DNA from: Oscillospiraceae bacterium
Lineage (GTDB): Bacteria > Bacillota > Clostridia > Oscillospirales > Oscillospiraceae
Direction of reading: 5' to 3'
Assembly: GCA_017436785.1 (NCBI GenBank)
Contig: JAFSCK010000010.1
Span: forward strand, 1-41,044
DNA: 41,044 bases
The notes beneath the pieces were generated by a model. That model was not told the DNA's origin. It worked only from the letters and a program-made list of their open reading frames with translations, and did not search any database. This document shows, in pieces, positions 2,801 to 31,357 of this stretch. Made by a program: the position numbers and the translations under genes. Within the stretch, counting starts at the first letter, position 1. Every line of letters begins with the position of its first letter.

Positions 2801-2993
2801 ATTTTTGAAATCTGACAACCTCATTGGGCGTGCAGTCCAAGGCAAAGCACAGTTTTTCCAACGTAAGGAGTGTAATATTATTCCCCTTCTTAATGCTATC
2901 CAGTGTTTTGTTATCAATTCCCAATTTCAGCAGACGGTACTGGCTGATCCCTTTGCGCTGCATCGTTTCCCACAAGGGAGAATAATCGATCAT
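2799..2993 (-). CDS. Small Cro/C1-type HTH transcriptional regulator
   Basis: A 64-residue protein that is essentially one helix-turn-helix domain of the XRE/YozG-like type: ISQYRLLKLGIDNKTLDSIKK forms the HTH, followed by ITLLTLEKLCFALDCTPNEV. It probably binds DNA as a dimer. The start at 2993 is preferred because GGAAGGTGG lies just upstream in mRNA sense; a GTG at 3011 would put that ribosome site inside the coding region. It is divergent from the small gene at 3102. A 13-bp palindrome between them is a candidate operator. The target is unknown. Confidence 0.8.
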   Translation of the reverse strand: MIDYSPLWETMQRKGISQYRLLKLGIDNKTLDSIKKGNNITLLTLEKLCFALDCTPNEVVRFQK

Positions 2994-3053
2994 GAACCGC
3001 CCACCTTCCACAGAATTTGGCTTTATTATATGGAAGTTTTTCTTCTTTTGATA

Positions 3054-3082
3054 TTGTGGAGATAATCACAATGTGATATAGT
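3054..3082 (+). promoter_or_regulatory. Candidate promoter with embedded 13-bp palindrome
   Basis: TTGTGG (3054-3059) and TATAGT (3077-3082) with a 17-bp spacer point towards the small gene at 3102. Inside the spacer is the perfect palindrome ATCACAATGTGAT (3065-3077), touching the -10 box, where a repressor would block RNA polymerase. The divergent HTH protein is the natural candidate ligand. The predicted leader would be very short, so the exact start is uncertain. Confidence 0.45.
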
Positions 3083-3101
3083 ATAGGTGGGAGGGATTTC
3101 A

Positions 3102-3317
3102 ATGACGATAGACAAAATTATTCAACAAGTAGCAAAAAAACACCACACCACCCCAGAAATCGTTCGTAAAGAGATGGAACTAGCAATGGCGCAGGCACAA
3201 AAAAGCACCAACCCAAAAGTTCAGGCACTATGGGCCGCCATCCCTCACAAGGGTGAACAGATCACACTGGAAGAATTTATCGAGTATGCCGCAATGATTG
3301 TTAGTGCTATTTCCTGA
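3102..3317 (+). CDS. Small helical protein resembling the Spo0A C-terminal domain
   Basis: A 71-residue protein, MTIDKIIQQVAKKHHTTPEI at the start, then VRKEMELAMAQAQKSTNPKV and an acidic end. The VAKKHHTTPEIVRKEMELAM stretch resembles the recognition-helix part of the Spo0A effector domain (IAKKFNTTASRVERAIRHAI in Spo0A, from memory). Small proteins of this kind occur in Clostridia, usually without known function. The ATG at 3102 follows GGTGGGAGG at good spacing; a GTG at 3087 would lie inside that ribosome site. It lacks a receiver domain, so it is not Spo0A itself. The family call is tentative. Confidence 0.6.
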   Translation: MTIDKIIQQVAKKHHTTPEIVRKEMELAMAQAQKSTNPKVQALWAAIPHKGEQITLEEFIEYAAMIVSAIS

Positions 3318-3340
3318 CACATTTCTTCTAATCGCAAAAT

Positions 3341-3478
3341 GTAGGGCGGGGTCATGACCCCGCCGGGCACTATCGATGCCCACACAGTGTCGTTTTGGTG
3401 CATAATGTGACGTTTAGCACCTATTTTACAATGTTAAAAATTACCACCGGGTCGGCGGGGTCAGTGTCCCCGCCCTAC
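3341..3478. repeat. Inverted-repeat element, GTAGGG family (copy 1)
   Basis: A 138-bp element beginning GTAGGGCGGGGTCATGACCC and ending with GTCAGTGTCCCCGCCCTAC. Each end is itself near-palindromic and the two ends are inverted copies. The interior (~85 bp) is AT-rich without an ORF. A copy of nearly equal length (139 bp) with the same ends but a different interior lies at 14765-14903. It fills most of the 3318-3605 gap. Confidence 0.75.
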
Positions 3479-3538
3479 AGTAGCCGGTACGACAGATTAC
3501 GATTTCCACATTTTTGGTTCCTTTTACCACATTTGCTC

Positions 3539-3567
3539 TTGTGTTCTCTGTATTCTTACGCTATAAT
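3539..3567 (+). promoter_or_regulatory. Sigma-A-type promoter for the TIM-barrel isomerase gene
   Basis: TTGTGT (3539-3544), a 17-bp spacer and a perfect TATAAT (3562-3567), about 40 bases before the start codon at 3606. Confidence 0.65.
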
Positions 3568-23942: not shown

Positions 23943-23969
23943 TTTTTCACCATTCCCACCTGCCAAAAT

Positions 23970-24079
23970 GTAGGGGACGGCGTCCTCGACGTCCCGGCGG
24001 TATTAGATCGTATTTGAGATCCTATTGAGGCGAATCCGTAATCGTCACATTGCGGGGCATCCGGGAGGCCGCCCCTTAC
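23970..24079. repeat. Inverted-repeat element, GTAGGG family (GGACGGCGTCC subtype, copy 1)
   Basis: A 110-bp element beginning GTAGGGGACGGCGTCCTCGA and ending GGAGGCCGCCCCTTAC. The left arm is itself palindromic around GACGGCGTCC. It lies between the GH3 and symporter genes. Its left arm matches the inverted right arm of the element at 28297-28397. Confidence 0.7.
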
Positions 24080-25843: not shown

Positions 25844-25872
25844 TTGACAAACAGCACCTGTTGTGGCAATAT
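25844..25872 (+). promoter_or_regulatory. Promoter of the nrd locus
   Basis: A consensus TTGACA (25844-25849), a 17-bp spacer and CAATAT (25867-25872). The -10 box is inside the first NrdR box, so bound repressor would exclude RNA polymerase. Confidence 0.7.
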
Positions 25873-25911
25873 ATTGTGGAGGTTTCGAGAACATGGCACA
25901 ACATATAGTGT
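25864..25911 (+). promoter_or_regulatory. Tandem NrdR boxes
   Basis: Box 1 TGGCAATATATTGTGG (25864-25879) and box 2 GCACAACATATAGTGT (25896-25911) fit the known 16-bp NrdR consensus (ACACWATATATWGTGT type). The gap between them is 16 bp, the usual three-turn arrangement for this ATP/dATP-sensing repressor of ribonucleotide reductase genes. Confidence 0.75.
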
Positions 25912-25970: not shown

Positions 25971-28253
25971 ATGATCCAAAGTATCATTAAGCGCGATGGC
26001 CGCGTTGTTTTATACGATCAGAACAAGATCGCTGCTGCGATCCTCCGCTCTCTGGAGGCCTCCGGTGACGGCAACGCCGCCGATGCCGCCCGGGTCGCCA
26101 ACGATGTCCAGCGGGAGCTGGAAAACCGCTTCTCTACCCAGTCTCCCAACATCGAAGCCATTCAGGATACCGTAGAGCGTCAGCTGATGAACCACGGCTT
26201 CAGCGCCGCCGCCAAGGCCTACATCCTCTACCGGGCCAACCGTACCCGGGCCAGAGAGGCCAACACCAGCCTGATGAAGACCATCGACGAGATCACCAAC
26301 ATTGATGCCCGCATCAGCGATATGAAGCGGGACAACGCCAACATCGACGGCAACACTGCCATGGGCTCCATGCTCCAGATCGGCTCCGCCGGTGCCAAGG
26401 CTTACAACGAGATCTACCTGCTCCGTCCCGAGCATGCTAAGGCTTACCGCAACGGCGATATCCACATTCATGACTTCGACTTCTACAGCCTGACCACCAC
26501 CTGCTGCCAGATCGATATTCTGAAGCTGTTCCATGGCGGCTTCTCCACCGGACACGGCTACCTGCGGGAACCCAACTCCATCCAGAGCTATGCCGCGCTG
26601 GCAGCCATCGCCATCCAGTCCAACCAGAACGACCAGCATGGCGGCCAGTCCATCCCCAACTTTGACTACGGCATGGCCGAGGGTGTTGCCAAGACCTACC
26701 GCAAGGCTTTTACCCGCCGCCTGAAGGATGCCGTGGAGGACTATCTGGACCTGAGTGATGAAACCGCTGCAGTCAGCGCCATCATCGAATCTGCGGAAAA
26801 GGCCACCGGCGAGACCGCCAAGCTGGAAAGCAGCGAAGCCTATATCGCTGCTATTTCCGAAGGACTGGCAAAGCAGTATGGCATCTCTCCCGAAATGGCC
26901 CATAAGCTCATCACCCGCGCCTCCATCCGGGCCTACAAGAAGACCAACCGGGATACCCAGCAGGCTATGGAAGGCTTCGTCCACAATCTGAACACCATGC
27001 ACTCCCGTGCCGGTGCCCAGACCCCCTTCTCCTCCATCAACTATGGCACCGACGTAAGCCCTGAGGGCCGTATGGTCATCCGTAATATCCTGCTGGCACT
27101 GGATGCTGGTCTGGGCCATGGCGAGACCTGTATCTTCCCCATCCACATCTTCAAGGTCAAGGAAGGTGTCAACTACAACGAAGAGGACCCCAACTACGAC
27201 CTGTTCCGCCTGAGCTGCAAGGTCAGCGCCAAGCGCCTGTTCCCCAACTACACCTTCTTGGACTCCCCCTTCAACCTGCAGTACTACGTCCCCGGGCGTC
27301 CCGAAACAGAGGTCGCTACCATGGGCTGCCGTACCCGCGTCATGGGCAACGTCTACGATCCCAGCCGGGAGATCTCCTATTCCCGGGGCAATCTGAGCTT
27401 CACTTCCATCAACCTGCCCCGTCTGGCAATTGAAAGCGACGGCGACGAGGAGCTCTTCTACGAAAAGCTCCATGGTATGCTGGAGCTGGTCGCTCAGCAG
27501 CTGTTGGACCGCTTTGAAATTCAGGCCAGCAAGCACATCTACAATTATCCCTTCCTGATGGGACAGGGCATCTGGCTGGATTCCGACCATCTGACGCTGC
27601 AGGATGACCTGCGGGAGGTCCTGAAGCACGGCACCCTGTCCATTGGCTTCATCGGTCTGGCTGAGACCCTGACCAGCCTCTATGGCCAGCACCACGGTCA
27701 GAGCGAGGACATCCAGAAGAAGGGTCTGGAGATCATCGGCTTCATGCGCAAATTCTGCGATGCAAAATCTCAGGAGCTGAAGATGAACTTCTCTCTGCTG
27801 GCAACCCCCGCAGAGGGCCTGTCCGGCCGCTTCATCCGTATGGACCAGAAGCGTTTCGGCAAGATCAAGGGCATCACCGACCGGGAGTACTACACCAATT
27901 CCTTCCATATCCCCGTCTGGCACCCCATCTCCGTCTACGACAAGATCCGTCTGGAAGCCCCCTACCACGCCCTGTGCAATGCCGGTCACATCAGCTATGT
28001 AGAACTGGACGGCGATACCGCCCGGAACGTGGAGGCCTTTGAATCCGTGGTCCGCTGCATGCACGACTTCGGCATCGGCTACGGCTCCATCAACCACCCT
28101 GTTGACCGCGATCCCATCTGCGGCTATGTGGGCATCATCGGCGATGTCTGCCCCCGCTGCGGCCGTCGGGAGGGCGAGGAGATCGCCCCCGAGCGTGTGG
28201 AAGAGCTGAAGCGCCTGTATCCCCAGATGCCCGCTTTCCAAGGCATTGAGTGA
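25971..28253 (+). CDS. nrdD: Anaerobic ribonucleoside-triphosphate reductase NrdD, main body without the glycyl-radical segment
   Basis: A 760-residue class III ribonucleotide reductase body that makes dNTPs under anaerobiosis. It has an N-terminal ATP-cone (~1-95, IIKRDGRVVLYDQNKIAAAI), then family motifs NDQHGGQSIPNFDYGMAEG, GETCIFPIHIFKVKEG, ATMGCRTRVMGN and RGNLSFTSINLPRL. Near the end NHPVDRDPICGYVG and GDVCPRCGRREGEE form the metal-site region. It then ends in a non-family tail (EELKRLYPQMPAFQGIE) instead of the glycyl-radical R-x-x-G-Y motif, which is in the separate gene at 28428. The start is chosen by the ATP-cone N-terminus; an ATG at 25893 has a better ribosome site but overlaps an NrdR box. 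Confidence 0.93.
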   Translation: MIQSIIKRDGRVVLYDQNKIAAAILRSLEASGDGNAADAARVANDVQRELENRFSTQSPNIEAIQDTVERQLMNHGFSAAAKAYILYRANRTRAREANTSLMKTIDEITNIDARISDMKRDNANIDGNTAMGSMLQIGSAGAKAYNEIYLLRPEHAKAYRNGDIHIHDFDFYSLTTTCCQIDILKLFHGGFSTGHGYLREPNSIQSYAALAAIAIQSNQNDQHGGQSIPNFDYGMAEGVAKTYRKAFTRRLKDAVEDYLDLSDETAAVSAIIESAEKATGETAKLESSEAYIAAISEGLAKQYGISPEMAHKLITRASIRAYKKTNRDTQQAMEGFVHNLNTMHSRAGAQTPFSSINYGTDVSPEGRMVIRNILLALDAGLGHGETCIFPIHIFKVKEGVNYNEEDPNYDLFRLSCKVSAKRLFPNYTFLDSPFNLQYYVPGRPETEVATMGCRTRVMGNVYDPSREISYSRGNLSFTSINLPRLAIESDGDEELFYEKLHGMLELVAQQLLDRFEIQASKHIYNYPFLMGQGIWLDSDHLTLQDDLREVLKHGTLSIGFIGLAETLTSLYGQHHGQSEDIQKKGLEIIGFMRKFCDAKSQELKMNFSLLATPAEGLSGRFIRMDQKRFGKIKGITDREYYTNSFHIPVWHPISVYDKIRLEAPYHALCNAGHISYVELDGDTARNVEAFESVVRCMHDFGIGYGSINHPVDRDPICGYVGIIGDVCPRCGRREGEEIAPERVEELKRLYPQMPAFQGIE

Positions 28254-28296
28254 TTTCGTCACAGTGATTTTTGCGGGAATTTGTAATAATTAGAAT

Positions 28297-28397
28297 GTAG
28301 GGGGCGGCGTCCTCGACGCCCCCTATGTATCCAATATGCATTCACCATACCGTTTCTTTCCTATTCCCACCGGGACGTCGAGGACGCCGTCCCCTAC
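28297..28397. repeat. Inverted-repeat element, GTAGGG family (GGCGTCCTCGACG subtype, copy 2)
   Basis: A 101-bp element beginning GTAGGGGGCGGCGTCCTCGA and ending GACGCCGTCCCCTAC, with arms that are inverted copies. It lies in the 174-base gap between the NrdD body and the glycyl-radical gene. Confidence 0.8.
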
Positions 28398-28427
28398 ATC
28401 CCCTATTGGTACTAAGGAGGTACTTTT

Positions 28428-28589
28428 ATGACTATCAAATCTAAGAACGAAAAGCTGGGTCAGGGTGTTGGCTTTGAGCGCATCCGCCGCATCACCGGCT
28501 ACTTGGTCGGCACCATGGACAAGTGGAACGACGCAAAGCGTGCAGAGGAGCGTGACCGTGTTAAGCACGGTCTGAACGGAAATGCTTGA
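28428..28589 (+). CDS. Stand-alone glycyl-radical segment of NrdD (53 residues)
   Basis: A 53-residue protein: MTIKSKNEKLGQGVG, then FERIRRITGYLVGTMDKW and NDAKRAEERDRVKH. The RRITGYLVG stretch is the NrdD glycyl-radical loop, with Gly24 the predicted radical site activated by NrdG, and the rest matches the usual C-terminal end of NrdD (AE-x-x-DRVKH). TAAGGAGG sits 7 bases before the ATG, so it is made as a separate polypeptide. Two in-frame stops separate it from the NrdD body, so stop readthrough is unlikely. Its last 8 bases overlap the nrdG start. By analogy to the PFL spare part GrcA/YfiD, it probably docks into the NrdD barrel to complete the active site. Confidence 0.88.
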   Translation: MTIKSKNEKLGQGVGFERIRRITGYLVGTMDKWNDAKRAEERDRVKHGLNGNA

Positions 28590-29094
28590 GCTTAGCGGCA
28601 TCGTTTCCGACAGCATTGTAGATGGCCCCGGCATCCGCACCGCCATTTTCTCACAGGGCTGCCCCCATCACTGTCCCGGCTGCCATAACCCGGAAACTTG
28701 GGAGTTCGGCTGCGGCACCCAGATTCCCGTGGAGGCGGTGGTGGAGATTGTGGAAAGCAATCCCCTGTGCCGGGGTGTTACCTTCTCCGGCGGCGAGCCC
28801 TTCGCACAGGCAGCAGCCTTTGCGCGGCTTGCCAAGGCGCTGAAAGAAAAAGGCTACGAAGTTGCCTCCTATTCCGGTTTTACCTTTGAGGAGCTGCTGA
28901 GGGGCTCAGATGCCCAGAAGGAGCTGCTGGCCTCCATCGACATTCTCATCGACGGGCGTTTCCTACAAGCCCAGAAGAGCCTCGAGATTGCCTTCCGGGG
29001 CAGCCGCAACCAGCGGATCCTAGACGTAAAAGACAGCCTCGCCGAAGGCAAGGCCATAGAAACCACCAGCAAACGCTGGCTGGGAGAATATTGA
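28582..29094 (+). CDS. nrdG: Anaerobic ribonucleotide reductase activating protein NrdG
   Basis: A 170-residue radical-SAM activase that abstracts hydrogen from the NrdD glycine. The cluster motif is C27-x3-C31-x2-C34 in QGCPHHCPGCHN; the GG-E motif is VTFSGGEPFAQA (~72), and the N-terminal SDSIVDGPGIRTAIFSQGC is typical of NrdG. The ATG overlaps the end of the glycyl-radical gene (ATGCTTGA), coupling translation of activase and radical peptide. It is the last gene of the operon before the terminator at 29191. The 29100-29190 stretch shows nothing recognisable. Confidence 0.95.
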   Translation: MLELSGIVSDSIVDGPGIRTAIFSQGCPHHCPGCHNPETWEFGCGTQIPVEAVVEIVESNPLCRGVTFSGGEPFAQAAAFARLAKALKEKGYEVASYSGFTFEELLRGSDAQKELLASIDILIDGRFLQAQKSLEIAFRGSRNQRILDVKDSLAEGKAIETTSKRWLGEY

Positions 29095-29190: not shown

Positions 29191-29220
29191 AAACGGCATG
29201 ATTTCAGTCATGCCGTTTTT
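29191..29220. terminator. Bidirectional intrinsic terminator after nrdG
   Basis: AAACGGCATGA (29191-29201), TTTCAG, TCATGCCGTTT (29208-29218), then TT. It ends the nrd operon and overlaps the end of the convergent recombinase fragment. Confidence 0.85.
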
Positions 29221-30050
29221 CCGTTTTTCAAATCATAGAGTAATGTTGCAGGAAGAATCCCAATGTAGTTGTAGCTGATTTCCACATCCTGCACCCGGCG
29301 TCCACTGGAATTGTCCGGAGCATGGACATAGACTGCTTTAACTAGATCGTTCAGCACTGCGGGAGTCAATTTCTCCAGATGCAGATACTTCTTGGCTTGA
29401 CGGATAAATTTGTCCACATTCTCCGTCTGATCTTCCTGCCGTTGAATTTCATCTTCCAGAATGTCAATCTTTTCTCTCAGTTCAGCCTGTTCCTTTTCGT
29501 AGTCGTCTGCGAGCATCTGAAACCGTGCTTCACTGAGTTTTCCACCCACCATATCCTCATAAATACGCTTGAATAACCGATCCAGTTCGGCTAATCGGTT
29601 ATCGGATTTCTGGAGCATCCGCCGCTTTGCAGCAAGCTCTTTTCTGACTTCGGCATTTCGCTTGGCACCTAGTGCCTTTCGGAACGCATCCTCATGGCTG
29701 GCGATGCAGGAGATCACCAACTGCATATGCCGCAAAGTACCTTCCTCCAGAACCACAGCCCGGATGAAATGGGATGTACAGGTTTCCGAACCCCGTCTGC
29801 GGGTAGTGGAGCAAATGAAGTGATCCTGCCGGGTTTCGAAGTTCTTACTGGTACAGTAGTACAGCTTTTCACCGCAGTCAGCGCATCGAACCACGCCGGA
29901 GAACATATTGCTCTTTCCGGTTCGGGTAGGACGGCGCTTGTTCTTTCGAAGCTCCTGTACCCGGTAGAAGGTTTCTTCATCCACAATCGCATCATGGGTA
30001 TTCTCGAAAATCTTCCATTCGGACTGGGGATTTTCGATTTTCTTTTTGCT
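29208..30050 (-). pseudogene. Serine recombinase, C-terminal remnant (zinc ribbon and DUF4368-type tail)
   Basis: The C-terminal ~280 residues of a large serine recombinase of mobile elements. Visible are KIFENTHDAIVDEETFYRVQ (recombinase-domain end), the zinc ribbon CADC...C...C in SGVVRCADCGEKLYYCTS, a long coiled coil (KRRMLQKSDNRLAELDRLF onwards, ~120-200) and the tail YNYIGILPATLLYDLK. The N-terminal catalytic serine domain is absent. Upstream the frame runs straight into relaxase sequence near 30043-30053, so a deletion has fused the two genes out of frame. It could be expressed from a GTG at 29984 but cannot recombine DNA on its own. Confidence 0.8.
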
Positions 30051-31044
30051 CTTGCAGGAAAGTGATGATCTCGCTGAGTTCCTTCAGATTGTTAGCTTTT
30101 GCCTTCTGGGTATATGCACCGGCATTGCGCTGATTGAAGTAAATCTGTAGCAGCGAAATCAGATCCGGAGTCTGAGGCTTGCTCAGTTCTTCCTTTGCTT
30201 CCTTCAGCCAGTCCAGCAGAGCGGCGATCTTTTTTCTCACACTCTGAATTAAAGAATTGGTAGCCTTGATCCAGCGGTTGAATTCACCCTTGTCGGTACG
30301 AATACCTTTAGCTTCCATCTGCCGGACGGCAGGTCCTTCATGGATGGTAGGGAGAACATCCACACCCTGTCTTTCATAGCTGCGATGGTCAATTCGTTCC
30401 GGCAGCCCCTTTTCCTCAAACTTGGCATTGCACATCGCCGCCCATTGTTTCCGCCAGTATTCCAGCGTTTCCGGACTGCCCCAGTCGGAGGTAGGGACTG
30501 CATTGAAAATGTAATTTCCATCTGCATCCAAGAGCCTGCTTCCTTCCTCATCCTGTTCATAGACTCGGCGCTGCTTCATGCCCCATTTGCCGTTTTCTTC
30601 AATAGGACGGATGGGAGCCATTACATGAAAATGTGGATTGGAAATACCTCCAAGTTCGGTATCCGGAACATGGATGGCAAAATCCACCACCATCCCCCGG
30701 CTCACAAAATGCTCCAATAAAAACTGCCTTGCAAGTGCGACGTTCTCATCCAGGGAGAACTCATTTTGCAAGGCAATGTCGAAACTGTATGCAAGTTGTG
30801 CGTTCTTTACACGCTCAGCTTTTTCTACTGCATTCCAGAGGGTTTGCCGGTCGGCATATTCTCTGGGTGCGTGGTCGGGGAGAAGAATTTCAGAGCAGAT
30901 CACGCCGCCCTTGTTGGTGTAGTCGGAGGTTTCACCGTAATATTCGCTGTACAGCTTCTCTCCGGCACGATAGGCCGCGGCAGCAATGGCGGACTGTCCT
31001 TTGCTGCGCTTAATCTGTGTTACATTCAGGTGAAACAGGGCCAA
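29992..31044 (-). CDS. MobA/MobL-family relaxase, 3'-truncated
   Basis: A ~350-residue mobilisation relaxase that would nick DNA at an origin of transfer. The N-terminus ALFHLNVTQIKRSKGQSAIA and AAAYRAGEKLYSEYYGE are typical. The HUH metal motif is NPHFHVMAPIRPI (~residue 125). The last ~14 residues (NRKSPVRMEDFREYP) are recombinase DNA read out of frame, so the native C-terminus is missing. The start at TTG 31044 is inferred from the family N-terminus and an AGAGG site; an ATG at 31053 has no spacing to that site. It overlaps the upstream DUF3847-type gene by 35 bases. Probably inactive for transfer. Confidence 0.82.
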   Translation of the reverse strand: MALFHLNVTQIKRSKGQSAIAAAAYRAGEKLYSEYYGETSDYTNKGGVICSEILLPDHAPREYADRQTLWNAVEKAERVKNAQLAYSFDIALQNEFSLDENVALARQFLLEHFVSRGMVVDFAIHVPDTELGGISNPHFHVMAPIRPIEENGKWGMKQRRVYEQDEEGSRLLDADGNYIFNAVPTSDWGSPETLEYWRKQWAAMCNAKFEEKGLPERIDHRSYERQGVDVLPTIHEGPAVRQMEAKGIRTDKGEFNRWIKATNSLIQSVRKKIAALLDWLKEAKEELSKPQTPDLISLLQIYFNQRNAGAYTQKAKANNLKELSEIITFLQEQKENRKSPVRMEDFREYP

Positions 31045-31357
31045 TAGGCACATCCTCTTTTTCCCGGTGTAGCAGTACCGCATTGTGAATCACTCTCTGC
31101 ACATCGGGCATTTCCAGAATGCCTTCCATCAATTCATTAACCTCCGGTAAAGTCAATTCCTTGATCTCCGGCGCGATACTCTCCATGGTACCGGCAATGG
31201 TGCAAAGACGGTGGGTGCGTTTCTTCCGATCTGCTTTTTCGTAATAGGACTTCCGGTTTTCCAACCGCTGCTGGTTGTGCTGAAGCTGTTCCAGTTTTTG
31301 CTCCACGCTGGCCTGTTCCTGCTGGAGTTTCACAAGCTCCGGGTTGGATTGATACAT
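31010..31357 (-). CDS. DUF3847-type mobile-element protein
   Basis: A 115-residue protein: an N-terminal coiled coil (KLQQEQASVEQKLEQLQHNQ) followed by KSYYEKADRKKRTHRLCTIA and an acidic helical end. The YYEKADRKKR-x-HRL pattern is characteristic of the DUF3847 family that sits before MobA/MobL relaxase genes in clostridial mobilisable elements, probably as a relaxosome accessory. AAAGGAGG precedes the ATG. Translation is coupled to the relaxase by overlap. Confidence 0.8.
   Translation of the reverse strand: MYQSNPELVKLQQEQASVEQKLEQLQHNQQRLENRKSYYEKADRKKRTHRLCTIAGTMESIAPEIKELTLPEVNELMEGILEMPDVQRVIHNAVLLHREKEDVPIGPVSPECNTD

Follow-up and report, generated by a model that had tools for sequence, protein, structure and literature searches.

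A class III ribonucleotide reductase whose predicted glycyl-radical loop is encoded as a separate small protein in Oscillospiraceae

Introduction

Oxygen cleaves class III ribonucleotide reductases at their glycyl radical, according to the accessible part of the work on this reaction (PMC3019208). The accessible parts of recent surveys place the radical domain of these enzymes at the C-terminus (PMC9531940, PMC9669993), one of the two surveys having dropped sequences under 400 residues. In the NrdD of Prevotella copri, as far as the accessible text goes, the radical is carried by Gly711, within a C-terminal domain that also bears a zinc site (PMC11226230). Small proteins acting as spare parts for glycyl radical enzymes are also known: in the excerpts available of a 2021 account, only YfiD and Y06I are given as validated, and others are considered possible (PMC8683613). 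No description of a separate radical subunit of NrdD was found in the accessible parts of the open-licence literature that we searched. The present analysis concerns an nrdD operon in which the radical loop is carried by a gene of its own.

Results

The window, i.e. the whole stretch of DNA that was analyzed, comprises 41,044 nucleotides from a gut bacterium of the Oscillospiraceae (assembly GCA_017436785.1, contig JAFSCK010000010.1). On its plus strand, nrdD (25971-28253), a gene encoding a 53-residue peptide (28428-28589) and nrdG (28582-29094) form one operon. The NrdD body (760 residues) carries an ATP-cone, the NRDD barrel and a zinc knuckle, covers positions 1-531 of the 562 of the Pfam NRDD model and ends with YPQMPAFQGIE. 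The radical loop (RITGYL) is absent from its C-terminus and lies on the peptide, which is assigned as a putative glycyl-radical subunit from its Pfam match (NRDD positions 533-562, E = 1.4e-8) and its occurrence as a standalone gene across the genus (30 of 101 genomes). The partition of the model between the two products therefore indicates a single cut, between the zinc knuckle and the radical loop. The first-pass annotation of this DNA had described a body devoid of glycyl-radical motif and a separate loop gene with its own ribosome site and an 8-base overlap with nrdG, and all of this is borne out: the ribosome-binding site TAAGGAGG lies at 28413-28420 (plus strand), and the start of nrdG, which encodes a radical-SAM activase (TIGR02491, 140.4 bits for a cut-off of 126.1), overlaps the 3′ end of the peptide gene by 8 bases. 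The codon of the predicted radical glycine, Gly24 (GGC), occupies positions 28497-28499 of the plus strand. Homology to the C-terminus of pyruvate formate-lyase, whose Pfam family we take to be Gly_radical, was not detected: with E up to 1, the peptide matches no Pfam family other than NRDD, and the free loop proteins described below, searched to an E of 10, match NRDD together with two families at chance level. The peptide gene is the sole loop gene of its type found in the assembly.

Body and peptide share one reading frame in the window and are separated by a spacer of 174 nt. Four in-frame stops were counted between them (28251, 28284, 28287 and 28413), not two as initially stated. The spacer holds a palindromic repeat (28300-28398, with arms at 28305-28318 and 28376-28389) of which a related copy lies at 23969-23993, and long nrdD-peptide spacers also occur in other species of the genus. 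On the minus strand, two ORFs (29208-31083) resemble by eye a recombinase and a plasmid-mobilisation protein.

The best families for the body are those of class III NrdD, and models of vitamin B12-dependent enzymes match its ATP-cone region only, far below their cut-offs. Its nearest solved structure, the P. copri NrdD (PDB 8p23), is covered by the body and the peptide in turn: the body aligns to chain residues 5-706 (in two stretches) and the peptide to residues 707-738, radical glycine included, Gly711 corresponding to peptide Gly24. This alignment also locates in the MGCRTRV motif of the body a cysteine that we take to act as the finger-loop cysteine. Compared with one-piece class III enzymes such as that of P. 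copri, the ATP-cone, the barrel, the zinc knuckle, the loop sequence and the NrdG partner are alike, but the radical loop is on a second polypeptide, the body has an extra tail, and the zinc knuckle has three aligned cysteines (ICGY, CPRC) instead of four, its fourth position not being a cysteine in fused relatives either. The fold comparison covers the body only. When body, spacer and peptide were modelled by AlphaFold2 as one chain, the peptide was left undocked (pLDDT 33-44, from a shallow alignment with six fused rows).

The same genome also encodes a full-length NrdD (contig C23) of another type, with a four-cysteine zinc site and an RRTCGYIG loop. Therefore, the split enzyme may not be essential. 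The earlier objection that a full-length nrdD could exist elsewhere while the split locus decays holds for its first half only, since the C23 copy exists but the locus does not show decay (pN/pS of 0.003 in the loop core). Given the other loop type of the C23 enzyme, the peptide is unlikely to be a spare for it.

A peptide search of 101 genomes of the genus gave matches in 31: 30 free peptides (window included) and, in G026, a free loop protein that is longer and differs in its N-terminal domain. The order nrdD-peptide-nrdG, which the first-pass annotation had suggested looking for in relatives, is found in these 30 genomes (window included). In all 30 loci, the peptide is preceded by the end of a loopless NrdD body, and the 30 nrdD matches ending at NRDD positions 531-538 fall in the same genomes; two other early-ending matches devoid of peptide (G015 and G018) are both cut by contig ends and were not retained as exceptions. 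The body tail, initially called unrelated, is indeed unrelated to the loop but is not random, since it ends with YPxMPAFQGIx in 30/30 loci. Spacer length varies between 12 and 174 nt, each of the three frames is represented (20, 6 and 4 loci), a GGAGG motif lies ahead of the peptide start in 28/30 loci, and an ATG overlaps the end of the peptide gene in 27/30. Since the same split recurs in 30/101 genomes with these spacer lengths and frames, a sequencing error at 28251-28253, a worry expressed earlier, is excluded. The loop core of the peptide is under purifying selection (pN/pS of 0.003 compared to 0.224 for the ten preceding codons, all pairs of the 30 loci). No split peptide was found in the 71 other genomes of the genus, for which many assemblies are incomplete.

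Four further genera of the family share the order nrdD-peptide-nrdG (G220; G223, G284 and G133; G285; G161). One of these split-operon genomes (G220) has a second, free loop gene of 62 residues, on a 4.7-kb contig (L114) where neither nrdD nor nrdG was found beside it. A scan of named genomes gave at least 584 relatives, of which 80 were kept; automated calls on 81 loops among them gave 62 split, 8 fused and 11 orphan loops, counts that are not frequencies because mainly split and free forms went into the query. On inspection, four of the orphan calls (L213, L215, L249 and L275) proved to be contig-edge or script artefacts, and the seven others bear the N-terminal domain of the free form. Among the matches listed, split forms occur in the cultured Massiliimalia timonensis (L218), Gemmiger sp. 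An87, Scatolibacter rhodanostii and Anaerovibrio, as well as in bins labelled Mogibacterium, Fibrobacter, Desulfovibrio, Anaerobiospirillum and Bacilli; the nearest named relatives of the window among these matches are unclassified Oscillospiraceae or Eubacteriales bins. The operon loop protein of Anaerovibrio has the N-terminal domain of the free form and thus joins the split and free forms. In one locus (L214, about 2940-3560), a loopless nrdD and nrdG flank a tandem pair of loop genes.

The draw of 200 genomes of the family contains 73 bodies of this type (recognized with a profile of the NrdD C-terminus and counted by hand from the list). Ten of them are devoid of a working loop: nine matches stop short of the loop, and the one in G260 has lost the glycine. 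A separate loop gene is present in 10/10 genomes with a lost or dead loop compared to 16/63 with a loop (Fisher p = 9e-6, a value that overstates independence, since the genomes are related and 8/10 come from five split-operon genera). In G282, NrdD stops at FERIRRIRI, the rest being missing, and a free loop protein is present. Its genus has 15 nrdD bodies of this type, 14 of which continue through the loop; in one of these 14 (G304, where a free loop protein also occurs) the loop is altered. G192, from the genus of G260, has an altered loop that keeps its glycine, and both genomes carry an intact free copy. At the level of the class (147 genomes), three loopless bodies (G000, G421 and G462; window included) were found besides 37 intact matches, all three with a loop gene directly downstream; in G386 and G444, the loop gene lies elsewhere. 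G400 (L364) has an intact NrdD, a loop protein with the N-terminal domain and NrdG encoded in one row, which is likely an intermediate arrangement. G339 (L366) was rejected as a split, since its NrdD reads as a single chain in which a long insert separates the zinc knuckle from the loop. In a quickly built tree of 84 bodies, the loop state changes eight times, at least five of them on well-supported branches, which indicates repeated change and not its frequency, since the loop guided the choice of many rows and the tree contains some long branches. Butyricicoccus-like loopless bodies (L363 from G421, L241, L260, L267 and L268) keep a tail, TIGYHGD..EE.DR, that resembles a loop relic.

The search of the 200 family genomes gave a match in 77, including free loop proteins of about 86-100 residues. 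We fetched 19 free-loop loci, with up to about 3 kb on each side where the contig allowed, and neither nrdD nor nrdG was found within them. In 15 of these 19 genomes, NrdD of this type is also present as a fused chain, whose loop is altered in one case, and in one genome it is truncated; in the three others (G148, G184 and G296, 59-86% complete), no body of this type was found. An N-terminal domain of about 50 residues is common to 15 of the 18 free proteins aligned; the three others have a different one. For one free loop protein, AlphaFold2 predicts a beta-alpha-beta-beta N-terminal domain (pLDDT of about 80, and 67 for the whole model), for which Foldseek, run with this model, found no match at E of 0.001 or better. 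ORFs near some free loop genes (L103, L098 and L108) resemble by eye CRP-type regulators, thioredoxin or rubrerythrin.

Upstream of nrdD, the window carries a pair of NrdR-type boxes (25864-25879 and 25896-25911, plus strand) whose starts are 32 bp apart. With the consensus that we take to be that of the NrdR box, this pair scores 38 of 44, the 99.9% level of the null being 31. The nrdD of C23 likewise has such a pair, and weak pairs precede one split nrdD (L222) and two of the five fused nrdD tried (L246 and L270). Box pairs exceed the 99% level of a first-order null in 31 of 39 unique upstream regions of free loop genes, compared to 2 of 135 upstream regions of other long ORFs from the same loci; the eight other free loop genes have no significant pair. 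Upstream of free loop genes, the two best boxes are mostly about 32 bp from each other, in line with the spacer of 15-16 bp given for most bacteria in the accessible part of a published study (PMC12051234). Overall, the split enzyme is probably under NrdR control.

A scan of viral contigs gave 369 relatives, of which 80 were kept; 77 loops were recognized and three loci had none. Most of these loops (n = 62) are free and their locus contains no body; one lies at a contig edge, six are free but share the locus with a body and eight are fused. Among the 69 free-loop loci, 48 whole phage records were searched: a NrdD body was not detected in 44 and is present in four. None of the 48 is rated 90% complete, and the body may therefore lie on the missing part of these fragments. 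An endolysin, tail or integrase family was matched by a neighbour at five of the seven phage loci sampled, and 14 of 50,697 named phage records match. NrdR-type box pairs precede only 1 of 63 phage loop genes. In the Eggerthella phage EL753P1 (L361, OP172808.1, 2706-6137), NrdD ends without a loop, and a downstream annotated ORF of 42 residues starts like a loop protein and is interrupted right before the radical glycine.

Discussion

Sequence comparison makes it very likely that this locus encodes a two-part class III ribonucleotide reductase with its glycyl radical on a trans-acting subunit. The body would supply the ATP-cone, the barrel, the finger-loop cysteine and the zinc knuckle, and the peptide would supply the glycyl radical in trans. 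NrdG would act on Gly24, removing a hydrogen; the peptide, once activated, would then put its loop into the barrel, at the site of the C-terminal loop of a one-piece NrdD; and cleavage by oxygen at the glycine would cost only the small peptide, which a fresh one would replace. Damage would be confined to a replaceable peptide, with a parallel in YfiD for pyruvate formate-lyase, as described in the accessible part of that account (PMC8683613). The central reading of the first-pass annotation, a radical glycine on a small exchangeable subunit, draws its support from comparison, i.e. from split operons, free loops and phage loops. As the small piece also occurs alone in related bacteria and in phages, a replaceable part is probable, and we slightly favour an exchange of the radical peptide that rescues the enzyme after oxygen. 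A broader proposal seems to us evenly balanced: NrdD loops would circulate as a shared interchangeable subunit, serving as a part of split operons, as an NrdR-controlled spare and as phage copies that plug into the host body to secure or seize dNTP synthesis, the built-in loops being repeatedly lost once a trans copy exists.

The split could instead have been fixed without benefit, giving an obligate two-chain enzyme in which the peptide binds once and stays, without meaningful exchange. The window suits this explanation, as its peptide is the only matching loop gene found in the assembly and lies in one operon with body and activase. We nevertheless find it rather doubtful, since genomes with a fused NrdD encode free loop proteins at loci far from nrdD, phage loops have no detectable body and the loop state changed repeatedly on the tree (at least five times on well-supported branches), which together suggest a part acting on bodies made elsewhere. 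It is considerably less probable that the free and phage proteins are decoys or regulators that inhibit the enzyme by occupying NrdG or the NrdD barrel: this would agree with phage loops that lack a detectable body and mostly NrdR-type boxes, but would account neither for the split operons, whose body has no loop other than the peptide, nor for the presence of a separate loop gene in 10/10 genomes with a dead loop. The phage copies, taken alone, may still be decoys.

Two further explanations have almost no likelihood. Decay of the split nrdD into a pseudogene, the full-length C23 NrdD doing the work, could be invoked because the latter is present in the same genome; it is at odds with the pN/pS of 0.003 in the loop core, the intact order in 30 loci, the occurrence of the split in distant genera, the box pairs before both nrdD genes and the differences of the C23 enzyme in loop and zinc site. 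Similarly, the frame shared by body and peptide in the window could allow both parts to end up in a single chain, through read-through of the stops, a frameshift, bypass or splicing, but four in-frame stops would have to be passed there, the spacers of 12-174 nt occupy all three frames (20, 6 and 4 of the 30 loci), GGAGG precedes the peptide start in 28/30 of them and a spacer of 12 nt leaves no room for an intein.

If the proposed two-part enzyme with an exchangeable loop is true, it would answer whether spare parts exist beyond pyruvate formate-lyase, which is left open in the accessible part of the 2021 account (PMC8683613), and would place such a spare part in an enzyme making DNA precursors in anaerobes. 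It would also give a function to many genes of about 50 residues in gut phage contigs and offer a minimal two-part system for studying radical installation. Living lineages moreover display the fused, fused plus spare, decayed and split stages of a putative radical site moving from one chain to a separate subunit.

Among known systems, split class II reductases (NrdJa/NrdJb) are alike in being ribonucleotide reductases in two chains (PMC9669993, PMC4520616, from their accessible parts), but NrdJ is a class II enzyme without glycyl radical and NrdJb holds other C-terminal domains (PMC9669993, same limit). Phage nrdD genes are also found in pieces, but the accessible part of the report on them ascribes the breaks to introns, inteins and unexplained fragmentation and not to a radical subunit (PMC3653736). 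GrcA/YfiD and Y06I of phage T4 are closer: as far as the accessible text tells, they are small separate glycyl-radical proteins acting on a larger enzyme, phages carry one too, and their proposed use is repair after oxygen (PMC8683613). Unlike GrcA/YfiD, the loop of the window is that of NrdD and not of pyruvate formate-lyase, and it is encoded with nrdD and nrdG. The enzyme served by GrcA/YfiD retains its own loop, as do 15 of the 19 free-loop relatives (one with an altered loop), whereas the body of the split operon has none, its separate loop being the putative normal radical subunit. Overall, the comparison suggests a class III ribonucleotide reductase that would work like GrcA/YfiD without being a member of that group.
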